Positions 34,340 through 43,940 of a DNA stretch of 64,000 nucleotides are shown here, piece after piece (position 1 is the stretch's first letter; each line of letters begins with the position of its first letter). The DNA comes from Heliorestis convoluta (GTDB lineage Bacteria > Bacillota > Desulfitobacteriia > Heliobacteriales > Heliobacteriaceae). The stretch is from positions 2,399,501 through 2,463,500 of the forward strand of contig NZ_CP045875.1 in assembly GCF_009649955.1 (NCBI RefSeq). The letters run 5' to 3'. The position numbers were made by a program, and so were the translations under genes. The notes beneath the pieces were generated by a model. The model did no database searches. It had not been told where the DNA came from and was given only the letters and a program-made list of their open reading frames with translations.

Positions 34340-34432
34340 TACAAGGCCTCCTTCTGTGACCAGGCTCATTTTTTTTCTTAGTATAGACTGCTACTATGAG
34401 GAATAGCCAGAAGAGCGGGAGGTGAAGGCTTG

Positions 34433-36850
34433 ATGGAACGGGATAAAGTAGTTGCTTTGTCGAAAGTTGACTTTTTCTTTGATTTACCAAGAGAAAAGAT
34501 TGTGGCACTCGCCGATGATTTTCATTGGAAAAGTTATAGCCAGGGTGCCATTGTAATTCAGCAAGGGGAAGTAAGGCATCCTTTTTTTGTGATTGTGGAA
34601 GGTGCTGTTGAAGCAGTTGTTACCAAAGGTGAACTCGATCCCGTTCGGATCAATACTTTCATTGCTGGCGATTCTTTTGGCAAGATTTCTTTGTGCCTTA
34701 ACGAACCAGCCCCGACTACGATTCGAGCTTTGACAGACTGTCGAGTCTTATACCTAGATGAAGATCTTTTTCTTCAACTGCTGGCAGGGTGGCCCATTCT
34801 ATATAAAAAGTTAGCAGAACGTTTATCGCGCCATGCTAACAATGTGAACCTGGGGATTTGGGACGCTAGACAAAAAGAGTTTTTACGATCGACCCTTTAT
34901 CTCAATGAAATCGAGAAAAGGTTCTATAAAGTATGGGGCGGCCCTAAAACGACGCGACTCATGGATGAAGCAATTGCTACATTGGCCAATCATGATGATC
35001 ACTTGCTTTTGTACGGGGAACGTGGTACAGGTCGGCAAATGATGGCCTGGATGATTCATAAAAAGCGCTTTGGTGCACGAGCCCCTTTTGTAATTGTAGA
35101 GGGAAGTCAGTTAGAGCGTTACTTGACGGAAATGGATCGAGAGTTGTATCAGCTAGACTGTACGCTACCCGAGTCTGAAATGTCTGATGGCGGCCTCTTT
35201 AAAATGGTAGAAGGCGGCACTCTGTTCGTACAAGACTTACATGAAGTAACAGCCTATCACCAACGAAAGCTTGCAAAAATTTTGCGATCGGAAAAGACGA
35301 ACTTTGTGATCACAGGAAGCTTGCGACTGGCACAAGAAGAGATTGGCGATTTGTCAACGATTTTAGAAGAAGAGCTAAGCCTTTTCTTTCAGCATACCTA
35401 TTTTCTGCCAGCTTTGCGGCAACGAAAAAGAGATCTACCTTTTCTGGTGCAAGGGATTTTAGAAGAGCTTGCTCAAAGACAGCAGCGAGTTGCTCCGACT
35501 GTAAGCAATGAAGCGATTAAGCTGCTTTTATCGCACAGTTATCACCAGGGCAATGTAACGGAGTTGGCGCAGGTGATAGAACGGGCTTTTTTGCTTGCTG
35601 ATGGGACGAGCATTGACGTTGAGCATGTCTTCTTTGGGCCGACAGCGAAAAAAAGTGGTGGCACTTTTAACCTTTTGTCTATCCCTTTTCTGCGTAAAAG
35701 CTTGAAGCAGGGAAAAGGATTGTTGTTGCTAAAAGAGACGATTGCTTTTTTGTTTTTTGGCCTTCTTTTCCTACTATTGATGCAACCGGACTGGGCTGTA
35801 AAGACAGGAGTTTTTCTTTTTGCTTGGGGCTTATGGTGGCCTTTGTTGGCCCTTTTATCGCCCATTTTGGGTAGAATCTGGTGTACTTTTTGCCCTGTCT
35901 CTACAGTCATGGAAAAGGTACAAAGAATCAAAAGTTATCATCGACCTGCACCGATATGGTTAAAAAAATATGATTACTTGCTTGTGACAGGATTTTTTCT
36001 TTTTATTTTTTGGGTGGAAGTAACTTTTGCTTTTCGGCATCATCCTCTCTTTACCGGATTGCTGTTGCTGTTCTTGCTGATGGTCGCCGTTGTGATTGCG
36101 ATTGTTTACACAAGGCATGCCTGGTGTCGCTATCTTTGTCCACTCGGTGGTTTTATAGGCGTTGCGTCAATGAGTTCTCTCATCGAGGTAAGAGCAGAAA
36201 CATCCCTATGCTTGAATCAATGTACGACCTTTGACTGTTATAAAGGGAAAGGCCAGATAGCTGGTTGCCCCATGTCGCAGCATCTTGCCTATTTAGATAA
36301 TAATATCGATTGCAAACTTTGTTTGAATTGTGTACGAAATTGTCCCAATGATGCAGTGGAAGTAAACTTGCGCATACCGGGAAGAGAATTATGGCAATTG
36401 GTACGGGTTAATCAAGGCTATGTTATTTTTGTCGCTGCTTTGGTTGCCATTTTAGTTCCAATATTTTTCTTTGATAGTGTGCTTCCTTCTATAGAGGCTT
36501 TTGATGACTGGTTTCGGTTTAGTTTGTTATACTGGGGTTCTGCTTTGTTAGCAGGCGCTTTCACCTATGGAATCATTAAACCTTTTCAAAGGAAAGGTGC
36601 GTCAAAAAAAGTTCAATTTTTCTTTGCCCTTGTGCCACTTCTTTTTGCAGGTCATGGTATTTATCATCTACAGTATTTTCCTATTCTAGAGACAGTGCTT
36701 TTGGCCATGGCTCGGCTAGATGGTGAAATGTTGCAAACGATGTATATACCTGTTGTACGGTTGAGCCAACTTATGGTCTTAATAGCGGGAGTGAATTTCA
36801 CAATTCTTTTCCTATTTTTGGTTCAGTGGCGAAGTTCTGCAAAACTTTGA
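34433..36850 (+). CDS. Fusion: CRP-like sensor, degenerate sigma-54-activator AAA+ domain, membrane polyferredoxin
   Basis: An 805-residue multidomain membrane protein. Residues about 12-135 form a cyclic-nucleotide-binding-like domain (IVEGAVEAVV, GDSFGKISLC). About 170-410 resemble the AAA+ domain of sigma-54 activators but are degenerate. Walker A reads GERGTGRQM (Lys replaced by Arg), the GAFTGA loop is absent, and Walker B reads GGTLFVQDLHEV. From about 440 on are several membrane helices with NapH/NosR-like cysteine motifs (WCTFCPVS, WCRYLCPLGG) and a 4Fe-4S site CKLCLNCVRNCPNDAVE, then more helices. It looks like a membrane redox protein with a built-in sensory front end. The ATG follows ggaggtg. 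Confidence 0.85.
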   Translation: MERDKVVALSKVDFFFDLPREKIVALADDFHWKSYSQGAIVIQQGEVRHPFFVIVEGAVEAVVTKGELDPVRINTFIAGDSFGKISLCLNEPAPTTIRALTDCRVLYLDEDLFLQLLAGWPILYKKLAERLSRHANNVNLGIWDARQKEFLRSTLYLNEIEKRFYKVWGGPKTTRLMDEAIATLANHDDHLLLYGERGTGRQMMAWMIHKKRFGARAPFVIVEGSQLERYLTEMDRELYQLDCTLPESEMSDGGLFKMVEGGTLFVQDLHEVTAYHQRKLAKILRSEKTNFVITGSLRLAQEEIGDLSTILEEELSLFFQHTYFLPALRQRKRDLPFLVQGILEELAQRQQRVAPTVSNEAIKLLLSHSYHQGNVTELAQVIERAFLLADGTSIDVEHVFFGPTAKKSGGTFNLLSIPFLRKSLKQGKGLLLLKETIAFLFFGLLFLLLMQPDWAVKTGVFLFAWGLWWPLLALLSPILGRIWCTFCPVSTVMEKVQRIKSYHRPAPIWLKKYDYLLVTGFFLFIFWVEVTFAFRHHPLFTGLLLLFLLMVAVVIAIVYTRHAWCRYLCPLGGFIGVASMSSLIEVRAETSLCLNQCTTFDCYKGKGQIAGCPMSQHLAYLDNNIDCKLCLNCVRNCPNDAVEVNLRIPGRELWQLVRVNQGYVIFVAALVAILVPIFFFDSVLPSIEAFDDWFRFSLLYWGSALLAGAFTYGIIKPFQRKGASKKVQFFFALVPLLFAGHGIYHLQYFPILETVLLAMARLDGEMLQTMYIPVVRLSQLMVLIAGVNFTILFLFLVQWRSSAKL

Positions 36851-37429: not shown

Positions 37430-37716
37430 TGTCAGAATTGTTGCGGCTTCTGTGTATGAAGTAGAGCAGGAAAATGTCATGAAAAGTAGAATAAATAGTT
37501 TAGAAACTTAATAACTCCGAACTGGTTTGCCTACACTTCTTTCTTGGAAGCAGGGCTTGCCAGTCTATAGGGTCAGCGAGGAAACTTTCTGGCCTCCCAG
37601 GGTGGAAAGGAGACAGGTGAGCTAGGGACAAAAGGTCAATCCACCGCTTTGTGTGATTGTCCTTTTTTATTTTTTGTTTTTATGTCGATCAAGAAAGGGA
37701 AAGGTGGTCGTTCTGC
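37430..37716 (+). promoter_or_regulatory. Structured leader with attenuator-like hairpin upstream of tupB
   Basis: About 285 bp without a gene. The last part (about 37639-37672) can form a hairpin GGTCAATC/GATTGTCC, or GGACAA/TTGTCC, that runs directly into TTTTTTATTTTTT. This is a terminator-like structure placed before the tupB start rather than after a gene. Upstream sequence (about 37550-37640) is purine-rich with several GC blocks, such as GGCCTCCCAGGGTGG and GGAGACAGG. The arrangement suggests transcription attenuation, possibly a metal-cofactor or oxyanion riboswitch, but I cannot match it to a known class. Confidence 0.45.
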
Positions 37717-39971: not shown

Positions 39972-40625
39972 ATGAGCGATATAATAAAAGATATGGGTGC
40001 CTTTCACCTTGATGTGCTTAAAGAGATTAGCAATATTGGTTCGGGCAATGCAGCTACGGCATTGTCACAATTGTTGGGCAAGCGCGTAGGAATGCAAGTC
40101 TCTCGTGTTATGCCCATGCCTTTTCATGAAATCACAGAATATGTAGGTGGAGCAGAGAATATTATTACATCTGTATTTCTCCGTTTTGAAGGCGATATCA
40201 CCGGTAATATGTTCTACATTGTAGATCAGGAAGATGCCAAGAGGCTCGTGGAAGATCTGGCGGGACTGAAAGTGGAAGATGAGTTCTGTGAGATGTCCCT
40301 TTCTGTTCTTCAAGAGATAGGAAATATTTTATCGGGCTCTTATCTGACGGCGCTGGCTGATTTTTCTGGCTTGGAGATGAAGCCTTCTGTTCCCTCTTTG
40401 GCCATTGACATGGCTGGCGCATTGTTAAGCTACGGTCTCGTGGAGATTGGAAAAAGTAGTGACTACGCGATTATGATCGATGCAGAGATTCAGGCGGAAG
40501 GCAATGAGGTGCAACAGGCTGTTGTGAGAAAAGGCAAGACAGGCCACTTTTTCCTCTTGCCTGATCCGGAGTCTTTCGAAAAGATTTTCATGGCTTTAGG
40601 AGTTCATGGTTATGGCGGTAATTAA
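39972..40625 (+). CDS. cheC: CheY-P phosphatase CheC
   Basis: A 217-residue chemotaxis protein that dephosphorylates CheY-P and interacts with CheD. It contains the two CheC helices with catalytic Glu/Asn pairs: LKEISNIGSGNAATALSQLL (about residues 16-35) and LQEIGNILSGSYLTALADF (about residues 113-131). The second motif has Ser-Tyr where Asn-Ala is common. The frame is open from 39912, but ATG 39972 follows gggaggttagg closely and gives the normal family length. cheC overlaps cheD, as often seen in Firmicutes, and is separated from the cheRB genes at 4-6 kb by over 30 kb. Confidence 0.93.
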   Translation: MSDIIKDMGAFHLDVLKEISNIGSGNAATALSQLLGKRVGMQVSRVMPMPFHEITEYVGGAENIITSVFLRFEGDITGNMFYIVDQEDAKRLVEDLAGLKVEDEFCEMSLSVLQEIGNILSGSYLTALADFSGLEMKPSVPSLAIDMAGALLSYGLVEIGKSSDYAIMIDAEIQAEGNEVQQAVVRKGKTGHFFLLPDPESFEKIFMALGVHGYGGN

Positions 40626-41097
40626 AGTCGGCATTGCCGATTTGAATGTAGCCGTCAAACCAGACACCATCACAACGCTAGGCCTGGGTTCTTGTGTCGG
40701 TGTGACCTTCTACGATAGTAGTAAAAAAATTGCAGGGCTTGCCCATGTTATGTTGCCTTCAACAGAACTGTCTAAAGCGGCTGTCTTGAACAAAGCCAAA
40801 TTCGCTGACTCTGCTTTGCCAGAATTGCTGCGTCGAATGGTTGAGCTTGGTGCAATACCTCGACGGATTCAGGCAAAGATGGCCGGTGGAGCGCAGATGT
40901 TTAACTTTAAAGACCCATCGGGACAAAAAAGCATCGGCGATAGGAATATTGAAGCTTGCAAAGTAGCGCTGCGCAAATTGGGAATTCCCTTAGTAGCGGA
41001 GGACGTAGGGGGCAACTACGGAAGGACAATTGAGCTATTTACTGAAACAGGAATCTTGGAAGTTCGAGCCATTTCTAAAGAGATAAAACATATATAA
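40612..41097 (+). CDS. cheD: Chemoreceptor glutamine deamidase CheD
   Basis: A 161-residue enzyme that deamidates specific glutamines in chemoreceptors and stimulates CheC phosphatase activity. The catalytic Cys is in LGLGSCVGVTFYD (about residue 26) and the His in GLAHVMLP (about residue 43); the motif KMAGGAQMF is also typical. ATG 40612 lies 9 bases after aggag, better than the ATG at 40606, which leaves only three bases. It overlaps the end of cheC, so the two are coupled. The 3' end is followed by an AT-rich 200-bp region leading to pshX. Confidence 0.93.
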   Translation: MAVIKVGIADLNVAVKPDTITTLGLGSCVGVTFYDSSKKIAGLAHVMLPSTELSKAAVLNKAKFADSALPELLRRMVELGAIPRRIQAKMAGGAQMFNFKDPSGQKSIGDRNIEACKVALRKLGIPLVAEDVGGNYGRTIELFTETGILEVRAISKEIKHI

Positions 41098-41303
41098 TTC
41101 TGTCTGAAAAAAAAGGAAAGAGATAGTGATTTTTTCTACCAAATCATATACAATGATAGTGAATAGAATGTTTATATTCTGTTTGCAAAAAGGAAAACTT
41201 GGGTTCGCGTCGAATTATAATGCCTAAATCGCCATCTTCTGGTTATTACTTTTGCTTATGGCCGAAGGTGGTGCAATTTAATTATAATAGGAGGTGTTCA
41301 AGC
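41098..41303 (+). promoter_or_regulatory. Leader region of pshX
   Basis: About 205 bp, AT-rich, between cheD and pshX. TACAAT (about 41149) and TATAAT (about 41216) are possible -10 elements, but neither has a good -35 at 17 bp. A second TATAAT (about 41284) lies too close to the ribosome-binding site to be a promoter. Nothing else is evident. Confidence 0.35.
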
Positions 41304-41399
41304 ATGGAAATGTACAGCCCCATTTGGAACGTAGCTCACGTATTGGCTCTTATGTTACTTTTACTTCATATCCCTTACTACTTCGTTTTGAAAGACTAG
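41304..41399 (+). CDS. pshX: Photosystem small subunit PshX (heliobacterial reaction centre)
   Basis: A 31-residue peptide starting MEMYSPIWNVAHVLALML and ending YYFVLKD. It has one hydrophobic helix with histidines suited to bind (bacterio)chlorophyll. Size, start and helix match my memory of PshX, the small single-helix subunit that flanks the PshA homodimer in the Heliobacterium reaction-centre structure and holds bacteriochlorophyll g. The ATG at 41304 has an excellent ribosome-binding site (taggaggtg, 8 bases upstream). A longer frame begins at 41199 but is not needed. A strong terminator follows, so it is a single small transcription unit. No pshA or bch genes are in the window. Confidence 0.85.
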   Translation: MEMYSPIWNVAHVLALMLLLLHIPYYFVLKD

Positions 41400-41425
41400 T
41401 ACATGAAAAAGCTTGCTCCTTCATA

Positions 41426-41475
41426 GAAAGAGCCAGAAGAAAGGACCTTATAGTCGCTTTTCTTCTGGCTCTTTC
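41426..41475 (+). terminator. Strong terminator after pshX
   Basis: A perfect 17-bp stem (GAAAGAGCCAGAAGAAA with its complement at 41459-41475) and a 16-base loop. It lies between pshX and the convergent DUF1540 gene and may serve both. Confidence 0.8.
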
Positions 41476-41502
41476 TCATGGTAACAGTTAGGACTTTGCA
41501 AC

Positions 41503-41664
41503 TTATTTTTTTGTTGTTTTGGGAATGAAAGTTTCACAGGCTGTATCATCAGAAATACTGGTCATATGATCAGGTACTCTAGACTTAACATGGATGGTGG
41601 AAGCCTGACAGAATTCGCTTTGGTTGTAGTGACATTCTTCTACGTTGCATTTAATCATAGACAT
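41503..41664 (-). CDS. DUF1540 domain small cysteine protein
   Basis: A 53-residue protein with the DUF1540 pattern: CNVEECHYNQSEFCQASTI near the start (Cys 6, 11 and 19) and a further Cys at position 43 (DTACETF). Such proteins are frequent in spore-forming Clostridia and probably bind a metal through the cysteines; the function is not known. The start is well supported: ATG 41664 has the ribosome-binding site aggaggtgag 4 bases upstream. The gene is convergent with pshX and lies downstream of dnaX on the same strand, about 90 bp after the dnaX stop. Confidence 0.85.
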   Translation of the reverse strand: MSMIKCNVEECHYNQSEFCQASTIHVKSRVPDHMTSISDDTACETFIPKTTKK

Positions 41665-41751: not shown

Positions 41752-43566
41752 TTACTTATCTTTCAATTGATAGGTGATGGTTGCTTTCTCTAGAGGTAGA
41801 TTGTCAGTACATTCTATTTGCAGGTTCGGCTCCCCCAGTGCTTCGCGAATGACTTTTTCATTGGGAGCATATTTTGGAGGAGTTGTGTGATTTTTTGCAG
41901 GTATAAAAGGAAAAGGCACCGTATTAGAAGGTGTTCTTGTGGAACGTGACGGGTCGCTTATAGGAATCCCCTGGTTTTCATGATAGATTTGCAGTTCCAG
42001 GGTTTGTCCAAAATGTTCTGATAGAGCTTTTTGAACAGCAAGAGCAAGGTCTTTTAAACGGGGATCGTTGGGTTGATCATAGAGATTACAACTATGAAGC
42101 AAGTAAACTCTCTGTCCGCTTACTTTTTCTAGTCTCGTCTGGTTGCGCAAGATGGCTCGAAGAGGTGCTGATGACAAATTCGCTTTTGCTTTTTCGATAA
42201 TCGCAGGCCAACACTGCTGAACCTGTTCAAAAGATAAGCTTTCTGATGAACGTACCGGAGAGATGGCACTTTTTTTCGGAGGTTCTTGTTGTCGGGGAGA
42301 AGATGGTGCCAGTTGTGGAGCTTCCGTTATCAAGGAAGCGTCTGAAGCAACTGCTTGGGATGTGATTTGTCCTTGTAAACGCTTTTCTAAACTTTCGATG
42401 CGGCGACGCAACGCTTGCAACTCCATGGGATCAACCGTTGTATGGGAGGAACCTCGTTGTGGTGCCGGGCTATCTTCGGGGCGAGCAATGCGAATCAAAG
42501 CAACTTCTAAAAGCAGTCGTGGATGCGTACTCCACTTCATCTCTGACTCTGCTTTGCTAATAATTGTCAGTGCCCTTTGAATTTCTTCTATGGAGTCGCC
42601 TGTGCTTTTCGAGGAAATTATAGTAAAGACTTCTGGTGATAGATTAACCAAGCTTTGACTGTTCGGAATGGTTGCTAAAATCAAGCGATCACGATAATGT
42701 TCAAGAAGGTCCTTGGTAAGGGGGCGAATTTCTTTACCTCGATTCATCAAGTCATTCAACATCTGCAAGGCCTGGGAAAGATTTCCCTCGAACAAATGCT
42801 CACTCATTTTGTACAATGCTTCATCGCCAACAGCACCTAGTATGGTAGTTACATCTTCCGTTGTTATGGCCGCGCCTGCGAAAGAATGGGCTTGATCAAG
42901 GATACTAAGGGCGTCGCGCAGACCGCCTTCTGCTTTGCGAGCAATAAAATGAAGCGTTTCATCAGAGGTGTTGATTTGATGATGGCTACAAATCTCGCGC
43001 AGACGGGTAACGATTTGGTTTGCTTCAAGACGACGAAAATCAAAACGCTGACAACGAGACAAAATGGTTGCTGGTATTTTGTGGACTTCTGTAGTAGCTA
43101 GAATGAAAATGACCTTGTCGGGAGGCTCTTCTAATGTCTTTAACAAGGCGTTAAATGCTTCTGTTGTAAGCATATGAACTTCATCAATAATGTAAACTTT
43201 GTATGTTCCTTCTTGAGGTGCGTACTTTACTTGTTCGCGCAGCTCTCGAATTTCATCGACGCCTCGGTTGGAAGCAGCATCAATCTCTAGAACATCATGA
43301 GATGAACCACTGTTAATAGAACGACAATTGCTACATTCGTTGCAGGGCTTCTGTTTAGGCTCTATATTACTGCTACAGTTTAAGGCTTTGGCTAAAATTT
43401 TGGCTGTTGTTGTTTTCCCTGTTCCGCGAGGTCCGCAAAAAAGATAGGCATGAGCCATTCTTTGATAGACCAATGCATTTTGTAAGGTACAGCTAACATG
43501 CTCCTGGCCCACCAGTTCTTGGAACGTGCCAGGTCTCCACTCCCTGTAAAGAGCCAAATAGGCCAT
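41752..43566 (-). CDS. dnaX: DNA polymerase III subunits gamma and tau
   Basis: The clamp-loader ATPase of the replicative polymerase, 604 residues. The Walker A motif is CGPRGTGKTTTAK (about residues 44-56), the four zinc-binding cysteines are at CSSNIEPKQKPCNECSNC (about 68-85), and Walker B is YIIDEVHML. Sensor 1 lies in FILATTEVHKIPATILSRCQRF-type sequence. A less conserved C-terminal region of about 230 residues corresponds to tau. No internal A-rich slip site for a short gamma form was obvious. The ATG is preceded by aggag. The SRP RNA gene lies just upstream, as in many bacteria, but ybaB and recR point the opposite way. Confidence 0.95.
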   Translation of the reverse strand: MAYLALYREWRPGTFQELVGQEHVSCTLQNALVYQRMAHAYLFCGPRGTGKTTTAKILAKALNCSSNIEPKQKPCNECSNCRSINSGSSHDVLEIDAASNRGVDEIRELREQVKYAPQEGTYKVYIIDEVHMLTTEAFNALLKTLEEPPDKVIFILATTEVHKIPATILSRCQRFDFRRLEANQIVTRLREICSHHQINTSDETLHFIARKAEGGLRDALSILDQAHSFAGAAITTEDVTTILGAVGDEALYKMSEHLFEGNLSQALQMLNDLMNRGKEIRPLTKDLLEHYRDRLILATIPNSQSLVNLSPEVFTIISSKSTGDSIEEIQRALTIISKAESEMKWSTHPRLLLEVALIRIARPEDSPAPQRGSSHTTVDPMELQALRRRIESLEKRLQGQITSQAVASDASLITEAPQLAPSSPRQQEPPKKSAISPVRSSESLSFEQVQQCWPAIIEKAKANLSSAPLRAILRNQTRLEKVSGQRVYLLHSCNLYDQPNDPRLKDLALAVQKALSEHFGQTLELQIYHENQGIPISDPSRSTRTPSNTVPFPFIPAKNHTTPPKYAPNEKVIREALGEPNLQIECTDNLPLEKATITYQLKDK

Positions 43567-43670: not shown

Positions 43671-43940
43671 GGCCGTGCGCTTTTCTTCGAAAACTGCCTT
43701 CCAGGCGTTACCTCTGCAGTTAGCTCGAGCCAGGCTACCCCACGGCACCCGAAAGGGCCTACTTACCGTTGCTTCCTTCCGGACCTGGCGGGGTTCATAG
43801 GTTTTCGTTGCGTAGGACCCAACCGTCTACACCACTTACAGAGGCCAGTCCCCACAAGACAGGCCCTCAGAAAAAGCTTCAACCCCGCTACAGCGGATTG
43901 CGAGTTACAAGGCACCGCTAACGCCCCGTCTAGCACGACC
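43671..43940 (-). ncRNA. ffs: Signal recognition particle RNA (large bacterial type)
   Basis: The RNA scaffold of the signal recognition particle, about 270 nt, the size of the Gram-positive form with an Alu domain. The diagnostic SRP54-binding apical loop is present on the minus strand as GTCCGGAAGGAAGCAACGGT (near 43775-43795). The 5' and 3' ends pair perfectly (GGTCGTGC at 43940-43933 with GCACGGCC at 43678-43671). The Alu part shows the usual GGGGCGTTAGCGGTGCC and TGTAACTCGCAATCCGCT. It has its own promoter (43968-43996), is followed by a terminator, and sits directly upstream of dnaX. Confidence 0.95.

Follow-up and report, generated by a model that had tools for sequence, protein, structure and literature searches.

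Which protein does a reading frame of only 31 codons encode in Heliorestis convoluta, and does its position next to two chemotaxis genes bear on its function? An earlier note had taken the frame for pshX, the gene of a photosystem subunit, and had left it undecided whether the placement was informative about light-dependent movement or simply chance. We followed up both points in the window, by which we mean the whole 64,000-nucleotide stretch of DNA that was analysed, and in related genomes, and we consider here how the gene might be expressed.

Identity and distribution of the 31-codon frame

The frame occupies positions 41304-41399 of the forward strand, from an ATG at 41304 to a stop codon that ends at 41399, and its translation is MEMYSPIWNVAHVLALMLLLLHIPYYFVLKD (31 residues, followed by the stop). 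The ribosome-binding site that had been claimed is present: AGGAGGTG lies at 41289-41296 on the same strand, 7 nt ahead of the ATG, and when both strands were scanned for frames of 20-45 codons with AGGAGG 4-10 nt ahead of the ATG, this frame was the sole one in the window. The peptide also has the single helix and the histidines ascribed to it, namely one hydrophobic stretch, read as one helix, and the residues H12 and H22. Comparison with the known chain, as the earlier note had proposed, bore out the identification: among all PDB chains the best match was 5v8k_B ('proteinsubunit pshX', E 3.5e-7), aligned over 25 of 25 modelled residues, and the matches that followed were unrelated proteins at E 0.6.

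Very short frames frequently arise by chance, and neither Pfam nor NCBIfam contains a model of PshX, hence independent confirmation from these family libraries is not to be had; on these grounds, the frame might be a chance or degraded open frame that resembles PshX. This reading is, however, exceedingly improbable in view of the E-value against a solved chain, of the retention of the gene in eight genomes with changes mainly at third positions, and of a published annotation, FTV88_2551 (PMC7143216). Relative to the H. modesticaldum gene, 23 of 31 residues are identical (74%), with 5, 3 and 14 nucleotide changes at codon positions 1, 2 and 3, respectively. Orthologues are 31-32 aa long and share 13 invariant positions, which include H12 and H22, both of them invariant across the eight genomes (six distinct peptides). 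They differ mostly at third positions, and by this pattern of substitution the gene is under protein-level selection.

The gene itself is ordinary and not new, because the 2020 paper on Heliorestis convoluta HHT already lists it as FTV88_2551, with a length of 31 aa, a position outside the photosynthesis gene cluster and 74% identity to H. modesticaldum (PMC7143216). The suspected location outside any photosynthesis cluster is thus correct and in print, and the worry that automatic annotation might miss so short a gene does not apply to the published genome.

Within the family, pshX occurs in eight of nine genomes, among them those of H. convoluta, H. acidaminivorans, Heliophilum fasciatum, Heliobacterium mobile, H. 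chlorum and H. modesticaldum, and pshA occurs in the same eight. Photosystem genes, on whose presence in the source genome the earlier note had made its reading depend, are therefore represented there by pshA itself, which lies ~74 kb downstream of pshX on the same strand; wherever one contig carries both genes, they are ~74-150 kb apart and on the same strand. The ninth family genome (G008, 87% complete) has no pshX, no pshA and no BchB, but has SigH; this member of the family is possibly not phototrophic, or else its assembly is incomplete. Beyond the family, 74 genomes of the class and viral contigs gave no PshX match.

Chemotaxis genes and the conserved neighbourhood

Does the chemotaxis context carry any meaning? 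As described, cheC (39972-40625; Pfam CheC, 1.9e-24) and cheD (40612-41097; Pfam CheD, 1.9e-34) lie upstream of pshX on the same strand, with a gap of ~200 nt between them and the frame. Such proximity on one strand, together with the presence of flagellar genes in H. convoluta (PMC7143216), might suggest a functional link of pshX with cheC-cheD, for example in light-dependent movement. However, cheC and cheD neighbour pshX only in Heliorestis, and no homologue of this pair was found within a 20-kb stretch around pshX in the six non-Heliorestis genomes. Even in the sister species H. acidaminivorans the arrangement is looser, as a 557-aa open reading frame with a response-regulator-like start sits between cheD and pshX. 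Moreover, pshX has a conserved promoter motif of its own, and light-controlled motility was not known in heliobacteria as of 2017. A functional tie to chemotaxis is accordingly very improbable, and we reject it on the comparison across eight genomes.

The neighbourhood does have a constant element. The gene dnaX (41752-43566, reverse strand; Pfam DnaX domains) and ffs, encoding the large SRP RNA (43673-43938, reverse strand; Rfam RF01854), lie 0.3 to 9 kb away from pshX in each phototrophic genome of the family (eight of eight). In the other genera, pshX, ffs and dnaX are co-directional; in both Heliorestis species the ffs-dnaX segment is inverted, and therefore pshX is positioned behind the 3' end of dnaX. 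Because cheC-cheD lie near pshX in Heliorestis only, whereas the proximity of ffs-dnaX is family-wide, the chemotaxis adjacency needs no functional explanation. It is close to certain that it represents a lineage-specific accident and not a functional unit, in keeping with the suggestion of simple chance; the bearing on light-dependent movement finds no support. Identity and context taken together, we hold it as practically settled that the frame is pshX and that its chemotaxis neighbours are without meaning.

Two further features were seen. An 806-aa frame in the window (34430-36850, forward strand) shows an unusual domain combination: a domain for binding cyclic nucleotides, an ATPase domain of the sigma-54-activator type and a membrane portion that contains a 4Fe-4S (Fer4_5) domain. 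The frame has a counterpart of 71% identity in the sister species. In H. modesticaldum only, an Rfam match to V_AS7 'Vibrio RNA AS7' (96 bits against a threshold of 90; L013 9401-9569, forward strand) lies 400-590 nt upstream of pshX and is probably spurious.

A sigma-H-type motif and the predicted transcript

How might a solitary gene of this size be transcribed? Upstream alignment of the eight pshX genes yielded the pattern RnAGGAwWW-N11-RnnGAAT, a predicted sigma-H-type promoter that is represented in the window by AAAGGAAAACTTGGGTTCGCGTCGAAT at 41189-41215 (forward strand), with a -35 element AGGA at 41191-41194, a -10 element GAAT at 41212-41215 and 17 nt between them. The AGGA-N17-GAAT core precedes pshX in eight of eight genomes with a spacing of 17 nt throughout, and the GAAT ends 87-92 nt ahead of the ATG. 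The full consensus is exact in seven of the eight; the Heliophilum sequence (G006), ACAGGAAACTAACCATTGATGTAGAAT, deviates from it once, at the last W. A cognate sigma factor would be available, with SigH encoded in all nine family genomes above the curated cut-off (TIGR02859 in the own genome, E 5e-115). Sites with the full consensus number 44 in the H. convoluta genome and those with the reversed pattern 5; across the family, the respective ranges are 27-66 and 2-6. This control is imperfect in that AGGA is common in ribosome-binding sites. Among 30 sites examined, the majority were intergenic, and the downstream genes include two that we take, from their sequences, to be spoVS and minC. Another motif of this type (37466-37492, forward strand) ends 12 nt ahead of a molybdenum/tungsten-cofactor riboswitch (Rfam RF01055, 37504-37628), which precedes genes for an ABC transporter permease and ATPase. 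In Sporomusa, mapped transcription starts gave a SigH consensus of AGGA-17/18-GAAT and a SigH regulon that extends into energy metabolism genes (PMC12456013). The conserved sigma-H-type promoter before pshX is the novel part of the present analysis and is absent from the literature that we searched.

Alternatively, pshX may be transcribed by sigma-A, the sigma-H-like block being a coincidence or binding something else. Housekeeping control is generally usual for photosynthesis genes, and a TATAAT does lie at 41217-41222, just past the GAAT of the window. Yet a promoter scan of the forward strand before pshX reported no sigma-A-type site, and that TATAAT is not conserved in other genera, whereas AGGA-N17-GAAT is, in spite of a changed spacer. 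We thus regard transcription by sigma-A as rather unlikely, if by no means far-fetched, and we lean towards the view that the sigma-H-type promoter is in use at pshX.

Placing the start 6-7 nt past the GAAT, as the promoter motif would imply, gives the pshX mRNA a putative 82-nt 5' leader (41222-41303, forward strand) in which a hairpin (41231-41272, forward strand), a tentative conserved RNA element proposed from covariation, begins ~9-13 nt from the presumed start in all eight genomes. RNAalifold placed 12 positions of the aligned leaders in pairs, 7 of them changed on both sides. All five measures of covariation exceeded those of 500 shuffles, and slid versions were clearly worse; the shuffles ignore relatedness, and the structure derives from the same alignment on which it was tested. 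The leader of H. convoluta alone folds with z -3.8 over 60 nt and z -1.5 over 82 nt. A model was built from the two genera other than Heliorestis and Heliophilum (five sequences); it did not confidently find the three leaders that had been left out, and the eight matches of the full model were its own training sequences, with no second copy found. We therefore rejected the hairpin as a proven RNA family, because leaders that had been left out were not recovered. On these folding models, it is likely to form in the two genera other than Heliorestis and Heliophilum and can be proposed only tentatively for the latter. A role as an attenuator is unlikely, because the hairpin is not followed by a T-run; protection of the short mRNA would be a guess.

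At the other end of the gene, the earlier note had envisioned a strong terminator belonging to pshX itself. The stretch 41425-41476 indeed folds into a very stable hairpin (-38.7 kcal/mol, z -4.9), but it continues into CATGG instead of a T-run on the forward strand and was missed by a terminator scan, which covers loops of 3-8 only, so that the strength of the hairpin stands and its assignment is that of a possible terminator. It sits between pshX and a convergent DUF1540 gene (53 aa; 41503-41664, reverse strand). Outside Heliorestis, all six genomes have a canonical hairpin with a T-run behind pshX.

Possible separate transcription of pshX and pshA, and known systems

Is the reaction-centre core preceded by the same motif? 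The ~800 nt ahead of pshA contained no sigma-H consensus site in the eight genomes, nor was an intergenic one found elsewhere in the photosynthesis cluster of H. convoluta, in near-exact consensus scans that weaker sites could escape. One site, ~14 kb ahead of pshA, was considered as a possible head of the cluster and rejected, as it belongs to a gene that we take, from its sequence, to encode an HU-type DNA-binding protein; a conserved sigma-H-type motif precedes this HU-like gene (L057 3868) and its equivalents in six other genomes. The sole other match within the cluster (2531390) lies inside a coding frame and was likewise rejected as a promoter. Because the sigma-H motif was found before pshX and none before pshA, the comparison of upstream regions suggests that the PshX antenna subunit and the PshA core would be transcribed from different promoter types.

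In the most likely scenario, pshX would give rise to a short single-gene mRNA, made from a sigma-H-type promoter of its own that pshA is without, and the proportion of antenna subunit relative to the core might then shift with the growth state. Extended to all heliobacteria, the proposal that PshX is transcribed alone under SigH, apart from PshA, and that antenna content is adjusted to the growth or energy state is one that we put forward tentatively, at somewhat less than an even chance. If it were true, a photosystem subunit, and not the core, would stand under the early-sporulation and stationary-phase sigma factor, and light harvesting would be linked to cell state. To our knowledge, heliobacteria are the only phototrophic Firmicutes, and they are spore-forming. 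Tools for deleting genes and for lacZ reporters are available in H. modesticaldum (PMC9145376).

The product of pshX would serve the homodimeric type I reaction centre as an antenna subunit with a single helix. In H. modesticaldum, as published, two PshX accompany each PshA2, each with two bacteriochlorophyll g, and PshX serves as a low-energy antenna and as a stabiliser of the complex; by orthology, the same stoichiometry and bacteriochlorophyll g binding can be expected in Heliorestis. PshX of Heliobacterium (Heliomicrobium) modesticaldum (PDB 5V8K) resembles the present peptide in its 31 residues, its one helix, the same two histidines and the identity given above, and its gene also lies outside the photosynthesis cluster. 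The two proteins differ by eight substitutions, mostly inside the helix, and the H. modesticaldum gene differs in that no cheC-cheD adjoin it, its terminator is canonical and ffs-dnaX run in the same direction. FTV88_2551 of Heliorestis convoluta HHT is the same gene as the window frame, with the same size, extra-cluster position and identity figure. The motif ahead of pshX, in turn, is akin to the sigma-H promoters of Sporomusa sphaeroides, Bacillus subtilis and Clostridioides difficile in its -35 AGGA, its 17-nt spacer and its -10 GAAT, as mapped in Sporomusa; it differs from them in being a prediction from sequence only and in that the gene downstream encodes a photosystem subunit.
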